DNA of 64,000 bases from Lutibacter sp. GTDB lineage: Bacteria > Bacteroidota > Bacteroidia > Flavobacteriales > Flavobacteriaceae. The stretch is taken from positions 1 through 64,000 of the forward strand of contig NZ_WTAR01000022.1 of the NCBI RefSeq assembly GCF_013139515.1, read 5' to 3'. The notes under the pieces were generated by a model, which saw nothing but the letters and a program-made list of their open reading frames with translations, ran no database searches and was not told where the DNA came from. Shown here in pieces: positions 53,815-60,843 of the stretch. Each line of letters starts with the position of its first letter. The first letter of the stretch is position 1. The translations under genes and the position numbers were made by a program.

Positions 53815-54444
53815 TTATTTAGTTGCCAATGCCAATCCTTCTAATGCTGATACATCATTTGGTTTATTTAATAGTGCTTTTTGAAATAACACTTTTGCTT
53901 CTTTCTTTTTACCCAGTTGCAAATTTGTCCAGCCATACATTAATAAACCATCATAATCAAAAGGATATAAATCTACTATTTGTTTATAATACATTTGAGC
54001 TTTGTCAAATTGTGAACGATTGTAATAAATAGTTCCTAAATAATACATTGCTTTGGTATTATGTGGCGAATTTTCTAAAATACTTTTATATATAATTATT
54101 ACTTCTTCCCAATTACCTATGGCAGCTAATGGAAAAATAGTTCCAAATTTTGGTTCATCAGCATAAGGCATCAATTCACTTGCTTTATTATAAAAAATAA
54201 TAGATTCGGTAAAATTTCCGGCCATATAGTTTAACCAACCTAAACGTAAATTGGTTTCATAGGAGTTTTCATCGTATAAACCTTTTAACTCATCTGCGGC
54301 TAATTTATAATCCCCATCTGCTTCAAATGAATAACTTTTACTAAATGCTTCTTGTAAATTTGTAAAATTTACTTGTGCAAATACTACGGGTTTCACACAT
54401 AAAATAAACAATCCTATAATACTTATCTTTCTTAAAATTTCCAT
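53815..54444 (-). CDS. Secreted TPR protein of the YaiO/UT-M23 operon
   Basis: The 209-residue protein has a signal peptide (...KPVVFAQ) and four to five tetratricopeptide repeats (YSFEADGDYKLAADELKGLYDEN, YMAGNFTESIIFYNKASELMP, YYNRSQFDKAQMYYKQIVDLYP, LQLGKKKEAKVLFQKALLNKP). It is periplasmic or surface exposed and probably a scaffold. Its start overlaps the end of the YaiO-like gene by 13 bp, so translation is coupled. Confidence 0.85.
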   Translation of the reverse strand: MEILRKISIIGLFILCVKPVVFAQVNFTNLQEAFSKSYSFEADGDYKLAADELKGLYDENSYETNLRLGWLNYMAGNFTESIIFYNKASELMPYADEPKFGTIFPLAAIGNWEEVIIIYKSILENSPHNTKAMYYLGTIYYNRSQFDKAQMYYKQIVDLYPFDYDGLLMYGWTNLQLGKKKEAKVLFQKALLNKPNDVSALEGLALATK

Positions 54445-55748
54445 GTAATTCCTGCTGTTATATTTTGTTGGTTAAATGTAAATACTTTTGATGTGCTATC
54501 TAAATTTTCAGTATAATAATTATCTTCTAGCTCCATAAAAGAATAACCTACTTTTATAGTTGAACTTTTAGTAAAAAATTGGACTACTGCTCCAAATTCA
54601 TTCAATGCTGTTGCAGCTTGATTGTAAAGTACTGCTCCATTATTAGCTGTAAAGTTATGCATATCACCAACAGTTCCGTAACCAACAATTGAAAACTTTT
54701 CGGTGTTAACAGATAAACCTCCTGTAAAAATCGTGCTTGAATCTGGATCTTCATTTTGATATTGAAGACCTCCAAATGGCACAAATAAAGTGCTTCCTAA
54801 AGGGTATAAAGCCATATTATAACCTGCTTGAAATTGGTTGTAACCATTTAAATTAGAAACCGAAACATTTATGGTATTTCTCATAAAGTATGAAGCTTTT
54901 GACAATGAACCACCAAAAACAATATCGCTATAATTTATAGTTGAAGATGATGAAGTTGATCTTCCTGGTCCTCCAACAGGAATTGTAGTATCTACATTTA
55001 AATTATCATAATCTCCATAAACAACATGTATAAATGTATCTAAATACCATCTATTTCCTAAAGCAACAGTTACATCTGCATAATAGCGTGTTTCGCTTCC
55101 TTTATATGTCTGGTTTTCAAGTAAATCTCCGCTATTTCCTTGCTGAACTGATGTAGTTGACATTACTGAAAGCTGATGAAATAAATTTACTCGTTTTGAC
55201 AAAGGATGGCTAAGCCCTAATGAATACAACTGATAATTTTCAGGAAATAAACGTATATCTCCATCTTCTGAATTTGTATCGGCTTTTAATAAAGCATCAT
55301 AATCTACATTGTTAGTTGCCAATACATTTAAACTTAAAGAACTTACAAAGGGATATTCCAAATTAATGGATTCTTTTAACTTCTTATTCATTTTATCATA
55401 AAATAAACGTGATTCTAATAACAAACCACTATAACGATATGACCAATATAAATATTCTTGCACTACAACATCATACGTATCAACCGCATATGCTTCTTCT
55501 AATAATTGAATGGCATTTAACATTTTATTTTCTTTAAAATAGGCAATTCCCATACGAACTTTCAAATAATAAAAATCAATTCCTGCAGCTCTAGATTCTT
55601 TCCCTAAAGCTAATAAAGGCTTCCAATCCTGTTTTAAATAAAGTGCATACGTTGTGCTATCTACTTGTTTAAATGATAAGGATGCTTTTTGTGCATTGGC
55701 AGCAGTTACCAACCACAAAACCAATATTACTGTAAGTTGTTTTCCCAT
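54432..55748 (-). CDS. YaiO-like outer-membrane beta-barrel protein
   Basis: The 438-residue protein has a signal peptide (...VTAANAQ), an N-terminal TPR-like part (about 20-130) and a barrel half (about 150-438) with alternating strands such as LYSLGLSHPLSKRVNLFHQLSVMSTT and SSTIKVGYSFMELEDN, ending ITAGITWKF. This is the YaiO barrel layout, seen next to TPR proteins and polysaccharide-modifying enzymes. It overlaps its upstream partner (UT-M23) by 22 bp and its downstream partner (TPR) by 13 bp. Confidence 0.83.
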   Translation of the reverse strand: MGKQLTVILVLWLVTAANAQKASLSFKQVDSTTYALYLKQDWKPLLALGKESRAAGIDFYYLKVRMGIAYFKENKMLNAIQLLEEAYAVDTYDVVVQEYLYWSYRYSGLLLESRLFYDKMNKKLKESINLEYPFVSSLSLNVLATNNVDYDALLKADTNSEDGDIRLFPENYQLYSLGLSHPLSKRVNLFHQLSVMSTTSVQQGNSGDLLENQTYKGSETRYYADVTVALGNRWYLDTFIHVVYGDYDNLNVDTTIPVGGPGRSTSSSSTINYSDIVFGGSLSKASYFMRNTINVSVSNLNGYNQFQAGYNMALYPLGSTLFVPFGGLQYQNEDPDSSTIFTGGLSVNTEKFSIVGYGTVGDMHNFTANNGAVLYNQAATALNEFGAVVQFFTKSSTIKVGYSFMELEDNYYTENLDSTSKVFTFNQQNITAGITWKF

Positions 55749-57958
55749 TTTAATTTAATTTTTGAATTTTTTGAGGTTTTACATTCAATATGTATCGTCT
55801 TATTTTTAAATACTACACTGTTAGCTGAAAATAGTACGCGATTTTTATTTCCTTCAATTTTAGATTGAAGTTCCATATTTTGAGGACTAAACGTTTGCTC
55901 CGTTTCTTTATAAGAAAGTTGATATTTACCTTTTAAAAATAGGACTAAAGGAACTAAAAAATCTTGAATTGTTAATAAAGGAAATCGGTATAAATGATGT
56001 ACAGGAAACCTTGTTTTTATCAACAAATTAGTTTGATCGCTTAACACTACTTTATAAAAAGAACGATAAAAATAAAACAACGCACTTCTTTTAGAACCCA
56101 AATAATTTAAGCTAGAAAACGTTTTGCCATTATTTTCATAATACAGTTTTGCATTTGTTTTTAAGCAGTGCAAATAAGACTGGTTATAACTATCAACCTC
56201 ATTTATAATTGAATAACTAACTTCTTTCTCAGCATCTTTCATTATTCTTAGCTCAAATTCATCACCAGGATTCCATTTAAAAGCATTTTGCAATAAAGTA
56301 ACTGTAGAAATAGTAGCTATAGTTTCTCCTTCCTTCGGAATTCCTTTTTCTACCAAATTTAATGATGAGTTATCATCTTTCACAATATATTCAAACAATG
56401 GCCAAAACGTAGTTTGATCACCAATTTTTGAAGTAGATTGCAATTGAAAATGTAAATGTGGGTATGGAGAACGACCAGAATTACCACATTTTCCAATTCC
56501 CTGACCTTCAACAACAACATCACCAATATGTACGGTAATTGAACCTTTTTTTAAATGACTTACTTTTGAAAACAAATACATATCGTGTTGTATTACAACT
56601 GTATTTCCCCAATTTTGAAGTGTATTTGCAACACCTATTTCATTATCTTCAATAGTATTAACAACTGCCACAACAGTTCCCATTGCAGGAGCAATTACTG
56701 GTTTATCAAAACAATAATAATCACTTGTTAATAGTCCTTCTCCTTGAAATTCTTTTCCTGAAATAGCATCTTTAATAATAAAATCCCAAGCATATTTAAA
56801 AAAAAATTTGTGTGTATAAGCACCATCATGACCTTGATTTACTGTCCATTGTCCCATAAATGGCAAACGAATAGGGATTGTAAAAGCGGCATATTCCTTT
56901 GCTGAATGACTATCGAATAAATACGCATTAGTTTCAGGATTTTTTTGCTGAATTAAGGTTAAAATTGGTGATTTTGCTTGATTGTAACGTATTTTAAACG
57001 CGTATAAAACTCCTATAACAATCATATTAAAAGGCAAAGAGAAAGCCGATAATTCAAAAGAAGCAAAAAGCCTATCTGAACCTATTGTTGTTACTACTAA
57101 TACAGGAATTAACACTAAACTCCATACAAATGAAGCTTTTGATGGAATTAAAAAATAACCACCAATGGCAATGGCTGACAATATAAAGTTAAAACCATAG
57201 TATGTATAATTTAACGAACCCGTGTACATTCCTAAAAATGAGTAAAACCAATACGCTACAAAAAAACCAACCAATGATAATAAAAAATTAACTCGAGAAT
57301 GAATTAACAAACCAATTGAGATAAGCACTCCTGCCAAAATATTAAATTGAAAAAAAATTGCGCCTAATGATAAAAAATAGGTGTCAAAACCAGTATCAGC
57401 AAAAAAAGTAGTAAGTGTATCAACAATTACAACAAGTGTATTTCCGCCTAATTTAAAAAACATATTAGAAGGATACAAAGCTTCTGTATTTAACGCTATT
57501 TTAGAAAATGAAGGAAACGCTAACAGCATTAACCACATTCCAAACAAAAATGGAATACTTAAAAATGGGAGTTTATATTTTGCAAACAATCCCATAATAA
57601 CTATTGTGCTAAAAAAAGCGATAGTACCGCCAACAATAATTAATAACAATACTTCTAAACTTGGTAAAAAATACGTGCCAATACCTAAACCTACTAGCAA
57701 AGCATTAAAACTAAAAAGCCCTTGTTTAGCAATAACTGGAGAATATTCAAGAACTGTAGACAAGCCAACAGCTGTTAAAACTGCTATAAGTCCGCTTAAA
57801 CCTGTCCACCAATCAATAAAACTTACAACAACTAATATTGATGCTAAAATTTTATTTTCAGTAAAAAAAATTTGTGAGTAGCTTGTTAAAATAGCTTCTC
57901 CAATAAAAAGGCTTTTTTTTAAAAGTTTATCTTTCATTTGAAATATATAGGACTTCAT
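55727..57958 (-). CDS. Urea transporter fused to an M23-type peptidase domain
   Basis: This 743-residue protein is a fusion. Residues about 20-320 form a urea-transporter (UT) domain: FSFNALLVGLGIGTYFLP, LPFLSIPFLFGMWLMLL and the second repeat FNFILSAIAIGGYF, with about ten helices. Residues about 340-520 are an M23/LytM-type domain: WTVNQGHDGAYTHKFFFKYAWDFII, VIAPAMGTVVAVV, HLKKGSI and GNSGRSPYPHLHFQL with the HxH metal pair. The remainder is beta-rich. M23 domains cut peptidoglycan peptides. A channel-peptidase fusion is unusual; what it carries or cuts is unknown. Confidence 0.87.
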   Translation of the reverse strand: MKSYIFQMKDKLLKKSLFIGEAILTSYSQIFFTENKILASILVVVSFIDWWTGLSGLIAVLTAVGLSTVLEYSPVIAKQGLFSFNALLVGLGIGTYFLPSLEVLLLIIVGGTIAFFSTIVIMGLFAKYKLPFLSIPFLFGMWLMLLAFPSFSKIALNTEALYPSNMFFKLGGNTLVVIVDTLTTFFADTGFDTYFLSLGAIFFQFNILAGVLISIGLLIHSRVNFLLSLVGFFVAYWFYSFLGMYTGSLNYTYYGFNFILSAIAIGGYFLIPSKASFVWSLVLIPVLVVTTIGSDRLFASFELSAFSLPFNMIVIGVLYAFKIRYNQAKSPILTLIQQKNPETNAYLFDSHSAKEYAAFTIPIRLPFMGQWTVNQGHDGAYTHKFFFKYAWDFIIKDAISGKEFQGEGLLTSDYYCFDKPVIAPAMGTVVAVVNTIEDNEIGVANTLQNWGNTVVIQHDMYLFSKVSHLKKGSITVHIGDVVVEGQGIGKCGNSGRSPYPHLHFQLQSTSKIGDQTTFWPLFEYIVKDDNSSLNLVEKGIPKEGETIATISTVTLLQNAFKWNPGDEFELRIMKDAEKEVSYSIINEVDSYNQSYLHCLKTNAKLYYENNGKTFSSLNYLGSKRSALFYFYRSFYKVVLSDQTNLLIKTRFPVHHLYRFPLLTIQDFLVPLVLFLKGKYQLSYKETEQTFSPQNMELQSKIEGNKNRVLFSANSVVFKNKTIHIECKTSKNSKIKLKWENNLQ

Positions 57959-57970
57959 ATAATAATTTTA

Positions 57971-57996
57971 TGGATTCCAGCCTTCGCAAGAATGAC
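57971..57996. repeat. REP-like palindromic repeat (degenerate)
   Basis: GGATTCCAGCCTTCGCAAGA is a degenerate copy of the ATTCCTGC-cttc-GCAGGAAT palindrome that is scattered between genes in many Bacteroidetes genomes. A related CGTTCCTTCTTCGTTATGACG lies at about 58078-58098. Confidence 0.5.
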
Positions 57997-58006
57997 AAAG
58001 TAATTA

Positions 58007-58014
58007 CAAATCTA
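58007..58014 (-). promoter_or_regulatory. -7 box upstream of the UT-M23 gene
   Basis: TAGATTTG on the minus strand; a TTTG at 58034-58031 lies 16 bp further up, shorter than the usual 19. It suggests UT-M23, YaiO and TPR genes can be transcribed separately from the decarboxylase genes. Confidence 0.35.
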
Positions 58015-58123
58015 AAGGAGAAGTGAGCAACAAAGCAATCTTAAAATTTGAACTTCTTAATTACAGGTAATTTTAGTCGTTCCTTCTTCGTTATGACGTA
58101 TTATTATTACTTTTTAATTTGTA

Positions 58124-58175
58124 AGACTGAGCTTGTTGAAGTGTTTACTTTAATTATCTTCTACAAGCTCAGACT
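58124..58175. repeat. Inverted intergenic repeat
   Basis: AGACTGAGCTTGTTGAAG and CTTCTACAAGCTCAGACT form near-perfect arms about 16 bp apart. TGAGCTTGTxGAAG is a common interspersed palindromic element of Flavobacteria. It may act as a terminator or mRNA stabiliser after the PLP decarboxylase gene. Confidence 0.6.
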
Positions 58176-58192
58176 AACATTTTATCACTATT

Positions 58193-59554
58193 TTATTTAT
58201 TCTGAAGGTATTCTGGCACTAATTCTTGTCTTCTAAATACTTCTTTATCTTCAGCTTTTCGTACCAAATGCACTTCTCCTTTTTCATCAATTAAAACAAT
58301 ATTAGGACGATAGGTAATAAACTGCATCCATTGTGTCATGGTGTACGCTCCTACTCTTTTCACTACAAAATGATCTCCTTTATTTAACATTGGAAAATCT
58401 ATATTTTTACGAATCACATCAATATTCATACATAAAGGCCCGTAAATTGTTGTTGGCTCTGATTGAAAACTTGATTCATGTACCGGATAAATTTCGTGAT
58501 CGTACCAAAAAGCAGTGAACATTAAATTTACACCTGCATCAATTACCATAGATCGTCTTCCGTCAGCTAAACGCTTATTTGCTAAAACGGTTCCTGCCAA
58601 CCAGCCGGCATCATCAATTAAAGCCCGTCCTGTTTCTAAAATTAACATTGGAGTTTCATTATTTGGAAAATTAACAGCTGTCATAGCCGTTGTAATTGAA
58701 TGTGCATAATCATCAAAACTTGGTGTAGTGTCAGTTGCTAGCATATACGCACCTTGTAATGTGTTTTGTGATGCAAAACCTCCACCAACATCAATATAGC
58801 CAATACTAGTTTGAAAACGATCGTATGTTTTATTTGCCAAAGCTGCTAATTTTTCAACTGCAGTAGCATATGCTTTAGACATTGTTATATACGTTCCTAT
58901 ATGAATGTGTAACCCAATTAAATCTATTTTTCCGTTAGAAAGTAACCTGTTTATTGCATTCCAAGCTTCACCATTTTCATAATTAAATCCGAAACGATCC
59001 CACTGAGGAATAATTCCTGTATCCATATTTACCCGAATTGCAACTTGTGGACGTTCTTTTAATTTATCAACCAAACCAATAATTGTGTACAATTCATCAA
59101 AATGATCTATATGAACTAATGATTTATTGTTGATGGCTCTTATTAAATCGGCATCGCTTTTATCTGGTCCGTTAAAAATAATTTTATTTCCAGGTGTGCC
59201 ATTATCTATTGCTTTTTCATATTCAAAGCCTGAAACTACTTCAGCCCAAGCTCCTTCTTGATGAAAAATACGGCAAACAGCATCTAAATAATTAGTTTTA
59301 TATGACCATGCAAATTGCACTTTTGGATACCGTGTAGAAAACGCTCTATGCGCAGTTCTATAGGTTTCTCGCATTGTTTTTTCAGAAATAACAAACACTG
59401 GAGATCCATATTTTTCAATAATACCATCAATGGGTACATTGTCTATAGTTTCTATGGGTTGCAACCTTTTTACACTTCCAAATTTGTTTGGAATTCCTTC
59501 AACAACTTTTCTTAATACCGGGCGTTCATATATTTTTTTATTCATTTTTTTCAT
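58193..59554 (-). CDS. Type III PLP-dependent decarboxylase-like enzyme
   Basis: The 453-residue protein has the alanine-racemase-like PLP barrel: Lys86 in FAWSYKTNYL, HIHIG at 216-220, VGGGF at 256-260 and ETGRALIDDAGW at 307-318. The C-terminal domain has the active-site Cys375 in GPLCMN and GAYT. These features place it with diaminopimelate/ornithine/arginine decarboxylases of group IV; the substrate-specificity helix is not diagnostic by eye. Given its ATP-grasp and PqqD-like neighbours it may act on an amino acid made or tethered in a small pathway (inference). It lies 2 bp after the ATP-grasp gene. Confidence 0.86.
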   Translation of the reverse strand: MKKMNKKIYERPVLRKVVEGIPNKFGSVKRLQPIETIDNVPIDGIIEKYGSPVFVISEKTMRETYRTAHRAFSTRYPKVQFAWSYKTNYLDAVCRIFHQEGAWAEVVSGFEYEKAIDNGTPGNKIIFNGPDKSDADLIRAINNKSLVHIDHFDELYTIIGLVDKLKERPQVAIRVNMDTGIIPQWDRFGFNYENGEAWNAINRLLSNGKIDLIGLHIHIGTYITMSKAYATAVEKLAALANKTYDRFQTSIGYIDVGGGFASQNTLQGAYMLATDTTPSFDDYAHSITTAMTAVNFPNNETPMLILETGRALIDDAGWLAGTVLANKRLADGRRSMVIDAGVNLMFTAFWYDHEIYPVHESSFQSEPTTIYGPLCMNIDVIRKNIDFPMLNKGDHFVVKRVGAYTMTQWMQFITYRPNIVLIDEKGEVHLVRKAEDKEVFRRQELVPEYLQNK

Positions 59555-59556
59555 TT

Positions 59557-60600
59557 TTATAATTCTCCAAACATGATTATTTTTTCAAAATCGGCAATAT
59601 CACCTATTAAATCCCACGAATAACGGATAAACATTTTACCGTAAGCGTATTCAGTTACTGGTGCTACTTTTTCTCCCATTGCCATTCTGCATAACATTTC
59701 AGGAATATTTTGCCCTGCGCCAACTGCTAAATACACCCAAGCTGGTATACGAGGATTAATTTCAATTAAATGATATTCACCATCATCAGTCTTTATCATT
59801 TCAAGTTCCATAGCACCACGCCATTTTGTTTCTTTCATAATATGATGTGTTATTTCAAGTAAACGTTCATCATTTAATGTAATTCCTCCCCAAGCCTTTC
59901 CTTTATCTGTAATATATTGTTTACGCATAGCAACTGCAGAAATTGTATTTCCTTCTCCATCACCTAATGCAATTACATTTACTTCTGTTCCATGTACTGC
60001 TTCTTGTACTATAACTGGAAGTCCCCATTTTGCAGATAATTTATTAAAATAATACACACCTTGACTTTGGTTTACCACTTTATAAGCTTCGTAAAACTTA
60101 CCTTTTATATAATATGGATATGATAAAGGTTTTGGCAAATTTGCCAATTCTTTACTATTTAAAATTGGTTTACTAGCTGGTACGGTAATATTATATTTTT
60201 TAGCAAACTCAGGTAAATTATCTTTATGTCGTTCTTCAAACTGCTCCATAGTTGGTAAGAATGTACGAATACCCATTTCTAACAATTTTTTGCTAAATTT
60301 TATAAATAAGTACAATTCTGAATCAAAATTTGGAATAATTAAATCTAATTGCTCTCTTTCCTGAATATACGTTAAACGATCTAAAAATGCTTCACTTCCT
60401 GTTGAAGGGAAAGGCATTAGGTACGTTTTATCTACCAAATTTGGCATATAAATTCCTGGTTCTAAATTTTCATAGGCTAAACCTATAATTCGAACATTCA
60501 TTCCTGAATCTTTTATTCCTCTAATTACAGAAACTCCAGGACCTGGACTATCAATATTATTTAAACCTGTAACTGCTATAGTTATTTTTTTTGATGCCAT
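59557..60600 (-). CDS. ATP-grasp ligase
   Basis: The 347-residue protein has an N-terminal Rossmann-like part (ITIAVTGLNNIDSPGPGVSVIRGIKDSG), a central ATP-grasp region with YPYYIKGKFYEAYKV as the nucleotide-site Lys strand and VIVQEAVHGTEVNV, and the metal-site string YHLIEINPRIPAWVYLAVGAGQNIPEMLCRMAMGE. This matches CarB/PylC-like carboxylate-amine ligases, which activate a carboxylate as acyl phosphate and join it to an amine. The substrate is unknown. It sits between the PqqD-like and decarboxylase genes with 3- and 2-bp gaps. Confidence 0.86.
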   Translation of the reverse strand: MASKKITIAVTGLNNIDSPGPGVSVIRGIKDSGMNVRIIGLAYENLEPGIYMPNLVDKTYLMPFPSTGSEAFLDRLTYIQEREQLDLIIPNFDSELYLFIKFSKKLLEMGIRTFLPTMEQFEERHKDNLPEFAKKYNITVPASKPILNSKELANLPKPLSYPYYIKGKFYEAYKVVNQSQGVYYFNKLSAKWGLPVIVQEAVHGTEVNVIALGDGEGNTISAVAMRKQYITDKGKAWGGITLNDERLLEITHHIMKETKWRGAMELEMIKTDDGEYHLIEINPRIPAWVYLAVGAGQNIPEMLCRMAMGEKVAPVTEYAYGKMFIRYSWDLIGDIADFEKIIMFGEL

Positions 60601-60603
60601 AAC

Positions 60604-60843
60604 TTAGTCTAACATATTTTCACGTTTTAAAAAATCTAAATACTCATATAAATCACGACCTGCAGTTACTTTATCTATTTCAAATTCAGTTGTAATTTCA
60701 TCAATAATTTCATTGGCGGGTTTTCCTTCTTTTAAATGATGAATAATTAATAAACCTAATTCATTTGTTGTAAACGACTCACCTGTAGATGGTTTAAAAA
60801 TAAACCCGTTATCACTTATGGCTAGTGAATTTAATTTGCTCAT
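60604..60843 (-). CDS. PqqD-like small protein
   Basis: The 79-residue protein has the PqqD fold pattern: SLAISDNGFIFKPSTGESFTTNELG, LIIHHLKEGKPANEIIDEITTEFEIDKVTAGRDLYEYLDFLKRENML. PqqD domains are peptide-recognition elements in RiPP pathways and guide substrate peptides to modifying enzymes. Here no radical-SAM enzyme is near; the ATP-grasp is the adjacent enzyme. No obvious precursor peptide was found upstream. It heads the operon. Confidence 0.82.
   Translation of the reverse strand: MSKLNSLAISDNGFIFKPSTGESFTTNELGLLIIHHLKEGKPANEIIDEITTEFEIDKVTAGRDLYEYLDFLKRENMLD

Follow-up and report, generated by a model that had tools for sequence, protein, structure and literature searches.

Urea transporters of the UT family share a fold of ten membrane helices (PMC10541013), and in the Desulfovibrio vulgaris urea transporter (dvUT) an oxygen ladder is formed by Q24, V25, E187 and V188, with L129/T130 and L293/T294 serving as donors (PMC5311045; PMC4357013). 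M23 enzymes are mostly peptidoglycan hydrolases, with a zinc set made up of H(x)nD and HxH (PMC9662197). In the pearlin clusters tgl and tmo, the product is assembled on the terminus of a carrier peptide and afterwards released by cleavage, and the parts are a RiPP (ribosomally synthesized and post-translationally modified peptide)-recognition-element (RRE) protein, an ATP-using ligase, a tailoring enzyme, a membrane-bound releasing metalloprotease and a transporter (PMC9303977, PMC9016710). Here we describe UT-M23, a gene in which a UT channel domain and an M23 peptidase are joined, found in a 64,000-nucleotide stretch of Lutibacter sp. DNA (the window; assembly GCF_013139515.1, contig NZ_WTAR01000022.1, positions 1 to 64,000). 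We tentatively favor, at rather less than even confidence, the reading that UT-M23 is the membrane part of a biosynthesis-and-export operon, and that it serves neither urea uptake nor cell-wall hydrolysis. A cytoplasmic peptidase fused to an exporter, with cleavage coupled to export, is found in the peptidase-containing ABC transporters (C39 + ABC) of bacteriocin systems; UT-M23 would likewise hold peptidase and exporter in one chain, but the folds are unrelated and UT is a passive channel without an ATPase.

The UT-M23 fusion and its distribution

A sequence-only reading of the window had placed UT repeats and an M23 core in one frame at 55727-57958, and we find this frame on the minus strand, arranged as follows.

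55727..57958, minus strand: UT-M23 fusion gene, a single 743-aa open frame
56999..57895, minus strand: UT channel domain, aa 22-320 (Pfam PF03253), pore columns compared with dvUT and stand-alone UTs
56384..56866, minus strand: M23 peptidase region, aa 365-525 (Pfam PF01551), five residues invariant in 52 of 52
55727..56338, minus strand: C-terminal beta-rich domain, aa 541-743, without a Pfam match

Pfam UT matches aa 22-320 at 174.7 bits (curated cut-off 25) and Peptidase_M23 matches aa 419-509 at 52.9 bits (curated cut-off 28.7), while the score against the NCBIfam urea-transporter equivalog TIGR03441, 108.3 bits, lies below its cut-off of 274.6. In phmmer searches, aa 11-331 cover the whole dvUT structure and aa 426-525 align to solved M23 peptidases. 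The protein had been read as two-part, and both parts are confirmed, but a third domain of about 200 aa, beta-rich and of no known family in Pfam, had been overlooked. Foldseek gives this domain weak LolA-like matches from a poor AlphaFold2 (AF2) model, and at TM-scores near 0.3 we do not claim a LolA-like identity.

We gathered and aligned 52 loci from many genera in which the fusion is intact in a single frame, and all residue and neighbor counts out of 52 refer to this set. Records from Lutibacter, Polaribacter and Seonamhaeicola, named strains included, carry UT-M23 in one frame at 61-77% identity, and Bacteroidales metagenome-assembled genomes do so at 44%. UT-M23 is thus a true fusion and not the product of an assembly or sequencing error that joined two genes, the event that was to undo the sequence-only reading.

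A presence/absence survey of 396 sampled genomes of the phylum Bacteroidota finds a UT domain over the Pfam cut-off in 44: 33 have the UT in a frame of 535-770 aa, one (G205) has a frameshifted fusion and ten have an ordinary UT of about 300 aa. Every UT over the cut-off is of fused length both in Flavobacteriaceae (5 of 201 genomes) and in the window's genus (11 of 38). In a maximum-likelihood tree, with dvUT and three proteobacterial plasmid UTs among the stand-alone set, the fused UTs form one clade apart from all stand-alone UTs (support 1.0, branch 0.80), so it looks as if the fusion arose once and was then inherited patchily. Plasmid carriage of the fusion was considered and rejected, as plasmids gave only separate UT genes or separate M23 genes; the three plasmid UT genes examined each lie among urease genes. 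The viral contigs searched gave no match to the fusion.

A conserved six-gene operon

The surroundings of UT-M23, which the sequence-only reading had passed over, are the main clue to its role. UT-M23 is the fourth gene of an operon whose other members, in order, are listed here.

60604..60843, minus strand: PqqD-like protein, 79 aa, of the RRE type, first gene of the operon (Pfam PF05402)
59557..60600, minus strand: ATP-grasp ligase, 347 aa (ATPgrasp_Ter; PRK12767.1-4 sub-threshold)
58193..59554, minus strand: pyridoxal-phosphate-dependent decarboxylase of LysA/FslC fold, 453 aa (Pfam Orn_Arg_deC_N and Orn_DAP_Arg_deC)
54432..55748, minus strand: signal-like segment, TPR-like helices and outer-membrane-type beta-barrel, 438 aa (AF2, Foldseek)
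53815..54444, minus strand: TPR protein with an N-terminal hydrophobic (signal-like) segment, 209 aa (Pfam TPR_2 and others)

The gene order, with spacing near zero or overlapping, is kept in about 50 loci; the barrel gene overlaps UT-M23 by 22 nt, which is conserved, and the TPR gene overlaps the barrel gene by 13 nt, as it does in 23 of 27 pairs. Neighbors across the 52 loci include the decarboxylase in 51, the ATP-grasp gene in 50 and the TPR gene in 47, and PqqD adjoins ATP-grasp in 42. The barrel is present in 30 loci, and 17 others have a different protein of about 279 aa that is apparently also a barrel. The operons at L066 (G318) and L069 (G229) are divergent, with a protein of about 280 aa replacing the 438-aa barrel, and in L066 the decarboxylase and UT-M23 are separated by an additional gene of 159 aa. 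Eight loci (L078, L079, L083, L085, L087, L089, L090 and L093) have a gene for a secreted-looking protein of about 280 aa before PqqD, possibly an extra cluster member or a substrate. Between the decarboxylase and UT-M23 genes, a 234-nt spacer (57959-58192) holds a short interspersed-repeat-like sequence, ATTCCAGCCTTCGCAAGAATGAC, one strand of which reads MDSSLRKNDK; the equivalent place in L002 gives a similar reading, MDSCLRRNDK.

Co-occurrence is exact. An ATP-grasp match at E <= 1e-30 is found in 34 of the 396 genomes, and these are the 34 with UT-M23 (33 intact, one frameshifted); within the genus, the 11 genomes that carry UT-M23 are also the ones that carry a close homolog of the decarboxylase (at least 80% identity). 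Pairwise identities of UT-M23, ATP-grasp, decarboxylase and TPR protein correlate (r=0.92-0.96), and thus these genes move together.

PqqD is a peptide-recognition family, and the PqqD-like protein (PF05402, 37.8 bits, cut-off 23.4) is its sole member found in the genome; against HPr-rel-A TIGR04353 it scores 19.8 bits, below the cut-off of 35, with two relatives just over. For the ATP-grasp protein the best NCBIfam match, PRK12767.1-4 at 95.9 bits, is sub-threshold and Pfam ATPgrasp_Ter, at 40.6 bits, is over its cut-off; its profile matches ATP-grasp structures of the carbamoyl-phosphate-synthase type. The decarboxylase has as its nearest solved structure the N-citrylornithine decarboxylase FslC (7kh2, E=7.5e-67), with BtrK, the L-glutamyl-[BtrI acyl carrier protein] decarboxylase, among the next, and these are among its nearest characterized relatives; it nevertheless falls under every curated cut-off, with 225 of 500 bits for FslC and 208 versus 297.9 for LysA TIGR01048. 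Since a genuine LysA (377 bits) lies at a separate locus (G000:C83), the operon enzyme is, to judge by these scores, a specialized LysA paralog. The AF2 model of the barrel protein (predicted local distance difference test, pLDDT, 88.4; predicted TM-score 0.78) gives Foldseek matches to FadL, OmpG, BcsC and AlgE.

The set of functions in this operon is that of the pearlin clusters tgl and tmo. No PEARL (LanB-type aminoacyl-tRNA ligase) is present among the conserved operon genes, and an ATP-grasp enzyme stands in its place; a radical SAM or MNIO enzyme is likewise missing, no linked carrier peptide was found, and protease and channel are one polypeptide. By analogy, the UT-M23 cluster resembles a pearlin system in its working, but we do not file it as a member, because it has no PEARL and no precursor peptide was found nearby.

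Pore residues, peptidase core and membrane side

The UT repeats had been read as intact, and the fold is: it aligns over its full length with the ten-helix inverted-repeat fold of dvUT and of mammalian UT-A and UT-B (SLC14), and shares with them the LPxxT/SxPF repeats, Q24 and most Phe slots. The pore, however, is unlike that of a classical urea channel. The outer (So) site, at the position of dvUT E187, is Ala in 34 fused proteins, Leu in 11 and Ser, Phe, Ile, Tyr or Met in the rest, such that the Glu/Gln is lost in 52 of 52, whereas E/Q187 and both Thr are kept in all 11 stand-alone UTs compared. T130 is replaced by Ser in 48 of 52 and T294 is changed in 49 (Ser in 24, Val in 17, Ala in 8); in the window's protein, the So-site Glu has become Ala200, and the Thr of the Sm site are Ser134 and Ser307. 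The fused proteins thus lack the paired polar So/Si residues (Q24 + E187, or Q/Q). As to whether pore residues are lost in all homologs, a question raised by the sequence-only reading, the answer is divided, since the fold, Q24 (45/52), L84 and F27 (each 52/52), the PF of both repeats and most paired Phe slots stay. Loss of the polar residue at the outer site is no more than suggestive of a different or relaxed substrate.

Urease is separated from the fusion as well. A full urease alpha is encoded in six of the ten genomes with a stand-alone UT, in five of them within about 7 kb of the UT gene, and in one of the 34 fusion genomes, on another contig; the window's own genome has none. Because the So-site Glu/Gln is lost throughout, urease is unlinked and the gene is always in another operon, urea is probably not the solute of this channel, and the earlier suggestion of a different solute gains support.

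The M23 core is complete. The zinc and catalytic residues H383, D392, H468, H501 and H503 are invariant in 52 of 52, and with H(x)nD, the middle His and HxH all in place the domain is probably active; the HxH that had been noticed stands, but the first motif is spaced H-x8-D and not H-x3-D. These motifs are common to the lysostaphin/LytM-type enzymes (MepM, ShyA, DipM, Csd1/2), from which UT-M23 differs in the H-x8-D spacing, the ten-helix channel, the lack of a signal peptide, a predicted cytoplasmic M23 domain and an M23 subtype shared with haloarchaea and Thermus.

Because the UT fold has ten helices, the N- and C-termini lie on one side of the membrane. Lys/Arg residues average 9.6 on the side of the termini versus 3.1 on the opposite side, with the same bias in 51 of 52 and the same sign in stand-alone UTs; chain parity together with the positive-inside rule indicates that the M23 domain most likely faces the cytoplasm, away from the sacculus. 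Among non-fused proteins, the closest relatives of this M23 subtype include some from haloarchaea (42-46% identity), and these fit a non-murein, cytoplasmic role, since haloarchaea are without murein. The tie to peptidoglycan drawn in the sequence-only reading is not supported by these observations. A C416-C491 disulfide, considered as a sign of the periplasm, was rejected because the two Cys do not strictly co-vary (43 C/C, 9 single); if anything, the pattern favors a reducing compartment.

Proteins with the same H-x(n)-D subtype of M23, at 42-46% identity to the M23 domain of the fusion, are encoded on haloarchaeal plasmids (L147:4533-5606, L149:3791-4654 and L150:3692-4618), some with N-terminal helices, and the gene next to the plasmid M23 of Haloplanus is an SMR exporter. 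A second pairing of transporter and peptidase is seen in Thermomicrobium roseum, where a same-subtype M23 gene (L148:4103-6699) overlaps an MFS-transporter gene.

Proposed role and competing readings

In the pathway that we propose, the PqqD-like protein would hold a carrier or precursor peptide, and the ATP-grasp enzyme would ligate an amino acid, or a similar acid or amine, to it. The LysA/FslC-like enzyme would then decarboxylate the conjugated amino acid, an assignment made because its nearest relatives, FslC and BtrK, act on an amino acid that is already conjugated. Zinc-loaded M23, attached to the UT domain on its cytoplasmic side, would cut the modified residue free, and the UT-fold pore, which would have been re-tuned when the urea-binding Glu and the Thr ladder were lost, would pass a small neutral or amine-like product across the inner membrane, from where the TPR and beta-barrel proteins may carry it through the outer membrane. 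The broader claim, that this is a new carrier-peptide natural-product pathway, patchy in Bacteroidota, in which a UT fold is the exit pore joined to a cytoplasmic M23 release protease, is possible, and we hold it with more doubt than belief.

Several observations weigh against this proposal. A urea-type pore is very narrow, such that only a very small product could pass. No small open reading frame (ORF) within 7.5 kb either side of all loci is conserved as a precursor peptide, although such a gene may be unlinked; a cluster of small ORFs from six loci was rejected as a candidate, since it is low-complexity DNA lying antisense upstream of PqqD. For the full fusion AF2 gives a poor model (mean pLDDT 62.7), and a periplasmic placement would agree better both with the weak LolA-like look of the C-terminal domain and with the compartment in which M23 enzymes usually work. 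Lungfish Ut-a2a also has a Leu at the position of E187 (PMC5311045), and so loss of E187 alone is no proof of lost urea transport.

If the proposal is correct, one branch of a passive channel family, for which urea is the only known solute, has been re-tuned to a different one and coupled to a protease of its own, and the M23 peptidases, so far regarded as cell-wall hydrolases, include a branch that works in biosynthesis within the cytoplasm. The locus would then also indicate that marine and environmental Bacteroidota have an undescribed pathway of six genes (RRE, ATP-grasp, decarboxylase, channel-protease, barrel and TPR), the product of which could be traced by comparative metabolomics. The open-licence full texts searched hold no paper on the fusion, nor on the combination of PqqD, ATP-grasp, decarboxylase and M23; the bare UT-M23 domain architecture may well be listed already in domain databases.

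The alternative that survives best, although we consider it unlikely, is that the UT domain conducts nothing specific and is a trimeric scaffold that anchors or clusters M23, with the product leaving by another route. At the So and Sm sites, residues have been lost or relaxed and vary among the fused proteins, with Ser, Val or Ala at T294 and Ala or Leu at E187, as in a decaying filter, and in Thermus and in some haloarchaea simple N-terminal helices, in place of a UT domain, anchor the related M23 proteins of the same subtype. Outside these sites the UT signature is nonetheless strongly conserved, with P127, P132, F133, L84, P296 and F297 present in 51-52 of 52 and Q24 not far behind, and the outer-membrane barrel in the operon suggests transport.

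Improbable in our estimation is periplasmic peptidoglycan salvage, with M23 outside, the channel importing a small fragment and the decarboxylase and ATP-grasp enzyme metabolizing it. What M23 enzymes mostly do (PMC9662197) fits such a scheme, as do the diaminopimelate decarboxylase within the LysA family, the C-terminal domain with its faint resemblance to periplasmic LolA, and the outer-membrane barrel and TPR proteins of the operon. It is opposed by the ten-helix parity and charge bias, which put the C-terminus inside in 51 of 52, by the murein-free haloarchaea that have the M23 subtype and by the genuine LysA elsewhere in the cell; diaminopimelate would moreover not get through a urea-sized pore, and the peptide-recognition protein would be left without a role.

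That UT-M23 is an ordinary channel for urea (or for ammonia or a small amide) with a regulatory peptidase is more improbable still: membership of the Pfam UT family and the largely kept Q24 and Phe slots speak for it, but it runs against the sub-equivalog score, the universal loss of the So-site Glu/Gln, the near-absence and lack of linkage of urease, and the constant placement of the gene in a different operon. There is practically no chance that an assembly or sequencing error joined two genes, even though the window comes from a draft assembly (157 contigs, 90% complete), because the homologs, with the frame open across 52 loci of many genera, refute it.

The single broken copy is that of L100 (9867-10170), in the single-contig genome G205, where a shift of one base at a T7 run breaks the UT-M23 frame. 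A natural split gene was rejected on the ground that the break is this one-base shift; it may reflect phase variation, slippage or a read error.

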